From Phenylobacterium sp. (lineage in GTDB: Bacteria; Pseudomonadota; Alphaproteobacteria; Caulobacterales; Caulobacteraceae), in NCBI RefSeq assembly GCF_030697305.1, contig NZ_JAUYQL010000026.1, forward strand, positions 1-42,582: a stretch of DNA of 42,582 bases, read 5' to 3'. The notes under the pieces are model-generated. The model was not told where the DNA came from, did not search any database, and was given only the letters and a program-made list of their open reading frames with translations. The translations under genes were made by a program, and so were the position numbers. Positions 37,590 through 42,582 of this stretch are shown here, piece after piece. Position 1 is the stretch's first letter. Each line of letters starts with the position of its first letter.

Positions 37590-39926
37590 ATGATCGACGT
37601 CGGCGGGATCAAGGTTTTCGACGCTGCGCCGTCGCTGCAGGGCGCCGTGGCGGCGCCGCTCGGCACGGATGCGGTGCAACTGATCCGCCTGGGCGAGTTC
37701 ACCGGCTCGGGCGCGGTCGCCGCAGGGCGGGCCGAGTCGGTCGACTTCGACGCCAGGTCCGACAACCTCTACGTCACCAACCTCGCGCAGGGGCGCATCG
37801 ACATCGCCCATCTCGGGGCCGATGGAGCGACCAGCGCCAACGGTTCGATCGACCTGAATGGCCTGCCAGCCTACGGCGGCGTGAACTCGGTGGCCGTGAA
37901 GAACGGGGTCATCGCTGTCGCCTATCAGAACACCGCCGGCGACCAGTCCGGCTACGTCGCGCTCTTCGACACCGCGACCAACACACTCATAAAGACCATC
38001 GCGGTGGGCGTGCTGCCCGACCAGGTCGTGTTCAGCCCCGACGGCAAGAAGCTGCTTGTGGCCAACGAGGCCGAGACGGTGTCGCCGACCAACAACCCTG
38101 CCGGCTCGATCAGCATCATCGACATGTCGGGCGGCGCGGCGAATGCGGCGGTCTCCAACACCATCTCGTTCGGCGCGCTGAACGGGTCGGAAGCCGCGCT
38201 GAAGGCCCAGGGCCTCGCGCTGTTCCCCGGTCAGGCGGCGGGGAACGACATCGAGCCCGAATACATCACCATCTCGCCCGACGGCACGCGCGCCTATGTG
38301 ACCTTGCAGGAGGTCAACGGCGTGGCGGTGATCGACCTCACCAACCCGACGGCTGATCGTCCGATCGCCATCCAGCCGCTGGGCGGTATCGACCGCACGC
38401 TGGCCGGCAACGCCTTCGACCCCAACGACCAGAACGGGGTGTCGATCGGCAATTTCGACATCGTCAGCCTGCTGCAACCCGACGCCATCGCCAGCTTCAA
38501 GGCGGGCGGCGCGACCTATTTCATCACCGCCAACGAGGGCGACGCGCGCGTCGGCGGCCTGGTCGACGAAGGCCGGCTCTCCGCGAACAGCTACAAGCTC
38601 GATCCGACCGCCTATCCCGACGCTGCAGCCATCAAGGCCAGCGCCGGACGCTTGAATGTGCTGTCCAATGTCGGCGACACCGATGGCGACGGCGACTACG
38701 ACCAGATCACCACCTTCGGCGGGCGCGGCGTGTCGATCTTCCGCCAGAACGCCGACGGCACGATCACCAAGGTGCGCGAAACGGGGGGCGAGTTCGAGGC
38801 GATCATCGCCCAGAAGTTCCCCAACCTGCACAACACCGAGAACGGCGCGACGCCAGACAACCGCTCGGACAACAAGGGTCCCGAGCCAGAGGGCGTCGCG
38901 GTCGGCGTGGTGGGCGACAGGACCTACTCCTTCGTGACGCTGGAGCGCGTCGGCGGGGTGATGATCTACGACGTCACCGACCCGGCCCAAGCGAGCTTCG
39001 TCGGCTACAAACCTGCGACCAGCCAGGACTATGCGCCCGAGGTGGTGAAGTTCGTGTCCGCCGCCGACAGCCCCACTGGCCAGGCCCTGCTGATCAGCGC
39101 CAACGAGGTCAGCGGGACGACCACGATCTACACCATCGCCAACCAGAGCGAGGGCGCAGACAGCATCACCGGCAGCGCGCTCGGCGACCGCATCGAGGGC
39201 CGTGGTGGGGCCGACACCATCGCGGGCCTGGCCGGCGACGACACCTTGGACGGCGGCGCGGGCGCGGACCTGCTGCGCGGCGGCTTCGGAAACGACACCT
39301 ACATCGTCGACTTGGCCGCAGACCGCATCGACGAGCGCCAGGGCGAAGGGACCGACACCATCCAGACCGGGCTCGCCTCGTTCACCCTGAGCGGCCAGGT
39401 GGAGAACCTGCGTTTCACCGGCGACGGGACGCATTCCGGAACCGGCAGCGCATTCGACAACGTGCTCACCGGCGCCGGCGGCTCGGACACGCTGAACAGC
39501 GGCGCGGGCGACGACACCCTGCAGGGTCTGGGGGGTGTGGACTCGCTGCTGGGCGGCGCGGGCGCGGACAGCCTGTCCGGCGGCGCGGGCGCCGACACCC
39601 TGGACGGTGGTTCAGGCAATGACGTCCTGGCCGGCGGCGCGGATGCGGACGTGCTGCGCGCCGGCTCCGGCGCCGACACGCTGAGCGGCGGCGCGGGCGA
39701 CGACACGCTGGAGGGTGGTTCAGGCGCCGACCTGTTCGTGTTCGCGGCCGGCTTCGGCGATGACGTGGTGACCGACTTCCGCAACGGCGACAGCCTGGAC
39801 TGGTCGGCGGTGGGCGGAGATGCGCCGATCATCACCGCCGACGGGGGCGACACCGTGATCAGCTTCCTCGACGGGTCCTCGATCCGGCTGGCGAACTACG
39901 CCTACGAGGACTTCATCGGCGCCTGA
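37590..39926 (+). CDS. Secreted RTX protein with choice-of-anchor I domain
   Basis: A 778-residue protein. Residues about 10-525 form a beta-propeller-like choice-of-anchor I region (RAESVDFDARSDNLYVTNLA, then VLPDQVVFSPDGKKLLVANE, ISPDGTRAYVTLQEVNGVAV, and NKGPEPEGVAVG). Residues about 530-730 are calcium-binding RTX nonapeptides (GGAGADTLDGGSGNDVLAGG, DVLRAGSGADTLSGGAGDDT). The tail FVFAAGFGDDVVTDFRNGDS to YEDFIGA is a type I secretion-type C-terminus, and there is no N-terminal signal peptide. Such proteins are exported by ABC/MFP/OMP systems, and none is in the window. Related propeller proteins include extracellular phosphatase-like proteins, but no catalytic residues can be assigned here. 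Confidence 0.85.
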   Translation: MIDVGGIKVFDAAPSLQGAVAAPLGTDAVQLIRLGEFTGSGAVAAGRAESVDFDARSDNLYVTNLAQGRIDIAHLGADGATSANGSIDLNGLPAYGGVNSVAVKNGVIAVAYQNTAGDQSGYVALFDTATNTLIKTIAVGVLPDQVVFSPDGKKLLVANEAETVSPTNNPAGSISIIDMSGGAANAAVSNTISFGALNGSEAALKAQGLALFPGQAAGNDIEPEYITISPDGTRAYVTLQEVNGVAVIDLTNPTADRPIAIQPLGGIDRTLAGNAFDPNDQNGVSIGNFDIVSLLQPDAIASFKAGGATYFITANEGDARVGGLVDEGRLSANSYKLDPTAYPDAAAIKASAGRLNVLSNVGDTDGDGDYDQITTFGGRGVSIFRQNADGTITKVRETGGEFEAIIAQKFPNLHNTENGATPDNRSDNKGPEPEGVAVGVVGDRTYSFVTLERVGGVMIYDVTDPAQASFVGYKPATSQDYAPEVVKFVSAADSPTGQALLISANEVSGTTTIYTIANQSEGADSITGSALGDRIEGRGGADTIAGLAGDDTLDGGAGADLLRGGFGNDTYIVDLAADRIDERQGEGTDTIQTGLASFTLSGQVENLRFTGDGTHSGTGSAFDNVLTGAGGSDTLNSGAGDDTLQGLGGVDSLLGGAGADSLSGGAGADTLDGGSGNDVLAGGADADVLRAGSGADTLSGGAGDDTLEGGSGADLFVFAAGFGDDVVTDFRNGDSLDWSAVGGDAPIITADGGDTVISFLDGSSIRLANYAYEDFIGA
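39170..39740 (+). repeat. Tandem RTX nonapeptide-coding repeats
   Basis: Short, imperfect tandem units of about 27 bases encoding GGxGxDxLx, with recurrent GGCGGCGCGGGCGCGGAC and CTGGACGGTGGTTCAGGC-like blocks. This is coding repetition within the RTX gene, not a CRISPR or satellite array. Confidence 0.85.
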
Positions 39927-39967: not shown

Positions 39968-40615
39968 TCAGAACGGCAGGATGTTGCGCTGACGGCTGTA
40001 GGCGAGGTAGCCGATGTTGGCGCCCAGTCGCAGGCCGACGCCGGCGCGGATGGGGGCGAGTGTGATCTCGTCGGCGCGCTGGTAGTTTACGCCCATGCCG
40101 CCCAGCAGGTAGGCTGAACCCTCGACGCCCGGGAAGCGTTGGAAGATCGCGTCCGGGAACTGGAGGTTGTAGCAGAGGGTGAACACGCGGCTGGCGTTGC
40201 CGCCGATGTCCCAGCCGATCGACGGGCCCTGCCAGAACAGCTCCTGGGTGGGCCGGTTCTTCATGTACAGCAGACCGCGGCCGTAGCGTGCGCCAACGGT
40301 GATGGCGCCGGAGGCTTCCTCGCCGGCGATATAGGCGGTGGGCCGGCCATACTCGCCGAACACCCGCTCGATCACGCCGCCGGCCGTTTCTGCGGTGACG
40401 CCCAGGAAATCCGAGACGTTGGTGACAATCTCTTCGCGCGAATAGGTCTCTGCGACCTGAGTGTTCGGGTCGGCGGGCTGCGAGCGCGGCGGCGTCGGGC
40501 TCGACACCGGTCCAAGGCCTGGGCCCTGGTTGTACGGATCACGCGGCCGCGCCGTGGCGCACCCGGCGGAGCCCAGGACGGCGATGCCTGAAATGATCAG
40601 CTTGCGGCGATCCAT
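39968..40615 (-). CDS. DUF1134 lipoprotein
   Basis: A 215-residue protein starting MDRRKLIISGIAVLGSAGC, with paired arginines and a lipobox ending at Cys19, so an exported lipoprotein, possibly by Tat. A proline-rich linker follows, then the DUF1134 domain: YSREEIVTNVSDFLGVTAETAGGVIERVFGEYGRPTAYI, YGRGLLYMKNRPTQELFWQGPSIGWDIGGNASRVF and the C-terminal LGANIGYLAYSRQRNILPF. The family is conserved in alphaproteobacteria with unknown function (YSC84-like fold). The ATG at 40615 with AGGAGAG upstream is preferred to the long frame from 40702. It is divergent from lepA. Confidence 0.87.
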   Translation of the reverse strand: MDRRKLIISGIAVLGSAGCATARPRDPYNQGPGLGPVSSPTPPRSQPADPNTQVAETYSREEIVTNVSDFLGVTAETAGGVIERVFGEYGRPTAYIAGEEASGAITVGARYGRGLLYMKNRPTQELFWQGPSIGWDIGGNASRVFTLCYNLQFPDAIFQRFPGVEGSAYLLGGMGVNYQRADEITLAPIRAGVGLRLGANIGYLAYSRQRNILPF

Positions 40616-40683
40616 GGACGCGTCTCTCCTAAAGGTATGAGCCAGCCTCCCATCCCCTGGCGTTCTGAATGCGGCGGTGTGGA

Positions 40684-40698
40684 TTAAGACGCGGTTAA
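40684..40698. promoter_or_regulatory. CtrA-type box TTAA-N7-TTAA
   Basis: TTAA (40684-40687), seven bases, TTAA (40695-40698) is an exact match to the core of the Caulobacter CtrA binding site. It lies in the 146-base region between the divergent DUF1134 lipoprotein gene (69 bases from its start) and lepA (63 bases from its start). The presence of gcrA in the same window makes a CtrA circuit likely; binding itself is inferred. Confidence 0.5.
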
Positions 40699-40761
40699 GC
40701 ATGACGGTCCCGCACCGACGCGCGCTCGCACGCCCGCCCGAATGTGCTAGACGCTGGCGCC

Positions 40762-42567
40762 ATGACGACCCCGCTCGAACGCATCCGCAACTTTTCCATC
40801 GTGGCCCACATCGACCACGGCAAGTCGACGCTGTCCGACCGGCTGATCCAGGAGACCGGCGGGCTGACGGCGCGCGAGATGAAGGAGCAGGTGCTCGACT
40901 CCATGGAGATCGAGCGCGAGCGCGGCATCACCATCAAGGCCCAGACGGTGCGGCTGAACTACCGCGCCAAGGACGGGCTGGACTACGTCCTGAACCTGAT
41001 GGACACGCCCGGCCACGTCGACTTCGCCTATGAGGTCAGCCGCAGCCTCGCCGCGTGCGAGGGCTCGATCCTGGTGGTGGACGCGAGCCAGGGGGTGGAG
41101 GCCCAGACGCTGGCCAACGTCTATCAGGCGATCGACAACAACCACGAGATCGTGCCGGTCCTGAACAAGATCGACCTGCCGGCGGCCGAGCCCGAGCGGG
41201 TGCGCCAGCAGATCGAGGACGTGATCGGCATCGACGCCTCGGAGGCTGTGCTGGCCTCCGCCAAGAGCGGCGTCGGTATCGTCGACGTGCTGGAGGCGGT
41301 GGTCGCCCTCCTGCCCGAGCCCAAGGGAGACAGCGTCGCGCAGTTGTAGTACCTGCTGGTCGACGCCTGGTACGACGCCTATCTGGGCGTGGTGGTGCTG
41401 GTGCGAGTGTTCGACGGCACGCTGCGCTCCGGCCAGAAGGTGCGGATGATGAACGCCGGCGCCACCTACCAGGTGGATCGCATCGGCGTGTTCCTGCCCA
41501 AGCAAACCGAGCTCGAGGAGCTGGGCCCGGGCGAGATCGGCTTCATCACCGCCCAGATCAAGCAGGTGGCCGACGCGGCCGTCGGCGACACCATCACCGA
41601 CGAACGACGCCAGACCGAAAAGGCGCTCACGGGTTTTCGCGAAGTGCAGCCGGTGGTGTTCTGCGGCCTGTTCCCGGTGGACGCCGCCGACTTCGAGGAT
41701 CTGCGCGCGGCGATCGGGCGCCTGCGCCTGAACGACGCCTCGTTCACCTACGAGATGGAGACCAGCGCGGCGCTGGGCTTCGGCTTCCGCTGCGGGTTCC
41801 TCGGCCTCCTTCACCTCGAGATTATCCAGGAGCGGCTCTCCCGCGAATTCGACCTGGACCTGATCGCGACCGCGCCCAGCGTGGTCTACAAGATCGGCAT
41901 GACCGACGGCTCGGTCATCGACCTGCATAACCCCGCCGACCTGCCCGATCCGGTGAAGATCGCCTCGATCGCCGAGCCGTGGATCAAGGCCACCATCCTA
42001 ACCCCGGACGAGTACCTGGGCGCGGTGATCAAGCTGTGCCAGGACCGCCGCGGCGAGCAGCGGGAGCTGTCCTATGTCGGCAGCCGCGCCATGGCCGTCT
42101 ACGACCTGCCGCTGAACGAGGTGGTGTTCGACTTCTACGACCGGTTGAAAAGCATCTCCAAGGGCTACGCCTCGTTCGACTACCAGATCGAGGGATACCG
42201 CGACGGCGACCTGGTGAAGATGTCGATCCTGGTGAATTCCGAGCCGGTGGACGCGCTGTCCATGCTGGTGCACCGCGACCGCGCCGAGGCGCGCGGCCGT
42301 TCAATGGTCGAGCGGATGAAGGACCTGATCCCGCCGCACATGTTCCAGATCCCGCTACAGGCGGCGATCGGCGGTCGGATCGTGGCGCGCGAGACGATCC
42401 GGGCGCTGCGCAAAGACGTGACCGCCAAGTGCTACGGCGGCGACGCCAGCCGAAAGCGCAAGCTGCTGGACAAGCAGAAGGCCGGCAAGAAGCGCATGCG
42501 CCAGTTCGGCAAGGTGGAGATCCCACAGGAGGCGTTCATCGCCGCCCTGAAGATGGACGCCGACTAG
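40762..42567 (+). pseudogene. lepA: lepA (elongation factor 4) with an in-frame amber stop at codon 196
   Basis: The frame from the ATG at 40762 to the stop at 42567 would give 601 residues, the usual LepA length. Residues 1-195 hold the GTPase domain: [64 protein letters not shown] at 41347-41349 (codon 196) then stops translation, and the same frame continues at once with [20 protein letters not shown] (domain II), later [17 protein letters not shown] and the C-terminal [19 protein letters not shown]. The four codons around the TAG (CAG TTG TAG TAC) differ from the usual PL(K/Q)A, so it may be a real nonsense mutation or a sequence error. No restart site with a Shine-Dalgarno sequence is seen. 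The rest looks under normal coding constraint. Confidence 0.88.
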
Positions 42568-42582
42568 GCGAGCCTGCGTGCT

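Follow-up and report, generated by a model that had tools for sequence, protein, structure and literature searches.

We analyzed a stretch of 42,582 bp (the window), which is an entire contig (C127) of a Phenylobacterium-like draft genome comprising 136 contigs and 2.8 Mb, with a completeness of 93.07% and a contamination of 2.65%. At its 3' end lies lepA, the gene for elongation factor 4 (EF4), whose reading frame is interrupted by an in-frame TAG between the GTPase domain and domain II. A homologue of EipA (Envelope integrity protein A) is located directly upstream of lepA on the opposite strand (39968-40702, minus strand). The window also encodes, at 37590-39926, a protein of 778 residues in which RTX-type calcium-binding repeats follow a choice-of-anchor I domain. 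The features of the lepA locus are listed in Table 1.

Table 1 Features of the lepA locus and of the adjoining contig end (positions in the window).
Feature	Position	Strand	Evidence or remark
Reading frame of lepA (elongation factor 4): 601 codons and a TAG terminator	40762..42567	+	ATG at 40762 to TAG at 42565-42567; interrupted at codon 196
In-frame TAG, lepA codon 196	41347..41349	+	Sequence of the window
lepA half with the GTPase (G) domain	40762..41346	+	Pfam GTP_EFTU, 3.4e-55
lepA half from domain II to the C-terminal domain	41350..42564	+	Pfam GTP_EFTU_D2, EFG_C, LepA_C
Tract with 11 bases absent from 36 near relatives	41247..41351	+	Density climbs to 41351, then ends; interpreted as the low-quality tail of a read
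Last 99 bp of the contig	42484..42582	+	Exact identity to an interior stretch of contig C76 (L145)

Translated through its one internal TAG, the frame matched the curated lepA model TIGR01393 over positions 2-595 with 957.4 bits, against a cut-off of 533.9 bits. The LepA-specific C-terminal domain, LepA_C, was matched 3' of the TAG at 4.4e-49, and an EFG_III match on the same side falls under its Pfam cut-off. The gene thus has the full-length model match and the C-terminal domain of a LepA and lacks only the uninterrupted frame. A preliminary description of the locus had reported a TAG at codon 196 in an otherwise full lepA frame, and the domains found on both sides bear this out. The nearest named records for the gene are Phenylobacterium draft genomes; the nearest full-length relatives come from genomes of the same genus, and one partial match reaches 89% across 897 bp. 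Compared with LepA of Phenylobacterium and other Caulobacteraceae, the domain order and length are the same and the DNA identity to the nearest full-length relatives is 88%, but here one in-frame TAG lies within a 105-bp tract of odd bases.

We then compared codon 196 across relatives. We aligned 109 fetched lepA loci, 108 of which span the codon. It encodes Lys in 106 of the 108, Gln in one and Arg in one, so that the Lys or Gln expected from homologues holds with a single Arg in addition. None of the 109 loci contained an internal stop in its aligned part. A search of 390 genomes of the family gave a match in all 390, where matches can include related GTPases, and among the 150 lepA matches listed the internal stop occurred only here. 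Its own genome yielded no second intact lepA copy and, besides this one, just a fragment of 241 codons at the end of contig C76. In the set of relatives, one record titled Bacillus subtilis SK6B4 (L069) carries a lepA of alphaproteobacterial type and is perhaps mislabelled or contaminated. Two genomes, G026 and G390, with listed contamination of 7% and 3%, have two near-full-length lepA matches each and are possibly mixed bins.

To describe the surroundings of the TAG, we defined a private base as a lepA base found in none of 36 distinct near relatives in a codon-by-codon comparison, leaving out two identical copies. The gene has private bases at 21 positions, and 11 of them fall inside the 105-bp tract (41247, 41282, 41309, 41318, 41328, 41332, 41336, 41342, 41347, 41350, and 41351). 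The gaps between them shrink from 35 and 27 through 9, 10, 4, 4, 6, 5, and 3 to 1 (Spearman -0.89), and the cluster is followed by 54 clean bases, the next private base being at 41406. When private bases were placed at random, none of 100,000 trials reached 11 in 105 bp, and none of 100,000 reached 7 in 24 bp. The same analysis of each of the 36 relatives gave a comparable cluster in one alone, L042, with 7 private bases within 24 bp and 12 within 105 bp. L042 is an uncultured Caulobacterales draft genome whose lepA has 59 private bases and perhaps also carries a sequence fault. In the wider set of 108 loci, five of the 11 tract bases occur in one to six more distant loci each, and the other six (41309, 41318, 41328, 41336, 41347, and 41351), including the T that forms the first base of the TAG, occur in none. 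The preliminary description had noted a local anomaly with atypical neighbouring codons. The anomaly is confirmed, but it extends over about 105 bp and thus well beyond a few codons, and TTG, which had been listed as an atypical replacement of Leu, still encodes Leu and is present in some relatives.

The private bases of the tract also differ in kind from those elsewhere in the gene. First or second codon positions hold 9 of the 11 in the tract versus 1 of the 10 elsewhere (Fisher p 0.0019), while third positions hold 9 of the 10 outside the tract. Transitions make up 1 of 11 in the tract versus 8 of 10 elsewhere in lepA (p 0.0019) and versus 191 of 404 private bases of the relatives (p 0.013), and A/C or G/T swaps make up 7 of 11 versus 110 of 404 (p 0.014); the counts behind these codon-position and spectrum tests are small, the tests are several, and the transition and swap tests are not independent. 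A further 3 of the 11 changes in the tract are A to T. The A or T outcome of tract bases is no evidence, because in this GC-rich gene most private bases are A or T in any case (9 of the 10 outside the tract). In a windowed scan for A/T changes, lepA did not stand out, since variable genes score much the same.

We next asked whether the rest of the assembly shows similar faults. In the sampled stretches, 109 genes at least 70% identical to those of the relative G028, with 40,102 aligned residues, contained two in-frame stops. One of these is at residue 2 of its alignment and was read as a start-site difference, leaving the lepA TAG as the only mid-gene stop. At an identity of at least 60%, 7 of 72 genes from G028 ran into a stop in this genome, and in the reverse control 7 of 76 genes of this genome ran into one in G028; many of these stops were near alignment ends, and three frameshift-like cases were seen in the reverse direction only. 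The similar counts in both directions show no excess in this genome. A codon-model scan returned 20 candidate in-frame stops in 0.83 Mb versus 15 in 0.8 Mb of the G028 control. The lepA TAG scored highest of the 20, and by eye most of the others resemble neighbouring genes that share one frame. A generally error-ridden assembly was therefore rejected; since the sampled part is otherwise clean, the fault is local.

The assembly is confused at the 3' end of lepA. The contig stops 15 bp past the gene, and these 15 noncoding bases belong to the 99-bp stretch that is also found in C76. There, the stretch follows the lepA fragment, which is 78% like the window lepA and has as its closest match among the fetched loci an alphaproteobacterial locus from outside Phenylobacterium (80.7%; best same-genus locus 78.7%). 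Past the stretch, C76 is collinear with the lepA flank of G028 at 71 to 73% identity. Because a foreign-like lepA part is joined to a G028-collinear flank, C76 is probably either a chimera joining the lepA end of another organism to the downstream region of this genome, or a contig of another organism sharing this end. Either way, the window lepA has been confused with another lepA at its 3' end. The fetched contig ends also show exact end-to-end overlaps of 141, 141, and 113 bp, the last joining the 5' end of the window contig and C89, which suggests a multi-k short-read graph assembly.

Taken together, these observations argue that the TAG is most likely a feature of the sequence file and not of the organism. 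We put the probability at roughly 90% that it is a consensus error in the draft assembly, with a poor read tail taken into the contig. This reading is based on a cluster that rises and then ends abruptly, ignores codon position and is rich in transversions, and on the confused assembly at the 3' end of lepA. The tract has what such an artefact would leave, being one-sided, sharply ended, indifferent to codon position and machine-like in spectrum, although the fit of the spectrum is partial. A single forward read of poor quality, with more and more errors toward its 3' end, would have been the only or main evidence across the tract; its tail would have entered the contig, and other reads would take over from 41352. 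Low coverage, a single read and the sequencing platform are what we infer from the consensus. The cell itself probably carries an intact lepA. A perfect 7-bp inverted repeat near the tract (41240-41246 / 41254-41260) and a stretch within it that is, by eye, rich in GGC/GGT (41295-41303) are weak candidates for error inducers, and the latter is not among the strong error-inducing motifs of PMC3622629. As to dephasing, inspection by eye alone suggested that the odd bases are not copies of the bases beside them. If the TAG is an artefact, it calls for caution: where a draft genome seems to have lost a gene, the private bases around the site should be checked before the loss is counted.

Published read-error profiles from two studies agree with this reading in part. 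Like Illumina B-tails and laser-pair substitutions, in which errors gather at the read end and A/C and G/T swaps are frequent (PMC3334598, PMC4381044), the tract combines a terminal cluster with such swaps. In HiSeq data these swaps are the commonest substitutions, and low-quality tails have an error rate of 6.5% versus 0.11% overall (PMC3334598). Toward the end of MiSeq reads (last 50 bp), C changes most often to A and G most often to T (PMC4381044). The tract differs in that it was inferred from a finished consensus, and in that its A to T changes are not favoured in the profiles described there: A most often becomes C in MiSeq reads (PMC4381044), and the dominant change at error-prone HiSeq sites is mostly toward G or C (PMC3334598). 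The cluster in L042 and the five tract bases that occur in distant loci also count against an artefact. Assemblers, moreover, usually drop sequence seen only once.

The preliminary description had offered three readings, namely that EF4 is lost or truncated, that the TAG is read through or suppressed, or that the base calls are wrong. Wrong base calls are best supported, and the other two fit poorly. A real and very recent lesion would mean that a single-event burst of clustered transversions within about 100 bp, for example from error-prone repair synthesis, broke lepA and left a natural lineage without EF4 or with a free G domain. Error-prone synthesis can make transversion clusters, and the cleanness of the rest of the sampled assembly speaks for such an event and counts against an artefact. 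E. coli tolerates deletion of lepA with no obvious growth defect (PMC4245954). However, the density climbs toward one end and stops sharply, as in a read rather than in a repair patch, and none of the other lepA matches listed has a stop. A single-base nonsense mutation does not account for the neighbouring changes. Loss of EF4 fits poorly because the gene outside the tract still looks normally selected, and pseudogene decay was rejected, as the third-position bias there shows no relaxed selection. We consider a genuine lesion unlikely; only if genuine would it be important, as the case of a wild bacterium that does without a near-universal translation factor.

The tract could instead be chimeric, joining in lepA sequence from another organism in the sample, rather than a read tail. 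C76 does show that another lepA was confused with the window lepA at the 3' end. A foreign working gene, however, would not bring a stop, and six of the odd bases were absent from all 108 fetched loci, which makes this origin very improbable.

Less likely still than a chimera is readthrough or suppression of the TAG with production of full-length EF4. This would demand an intact and conserved downstream frame, which the gene has, but the residues beside the TAG are altered too, and none of the 36 tRNAs found, an incomplete set without Tyr, Cys or Ile tRNAs, has a CUA anticodon. The genome has the release-factor gene prfA, which scores above its cut-off, and it uses TAG as an ordinary terminator at the end of lepA itself and of 18 of 76 conserved ORFs (TGA 51, TAA 7). 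A suppressor tRNA or an altered code finds no support in the 36 tRNAs found, in prfA or in the use of TAG. That a template switch or gene conversion copied the odd tract from elsewhere is just as remote: several short inverted repeats, among them one of 11 nt with 82% complementarity, touch the tract, but a 17-base core of the tract has no other match within two mismatches in the whole genome, no 12-mer from an 18-base core is found again in the 0.83 Mb sampled from this genome, and local templates account for two changes versus two to three for random substitutions.
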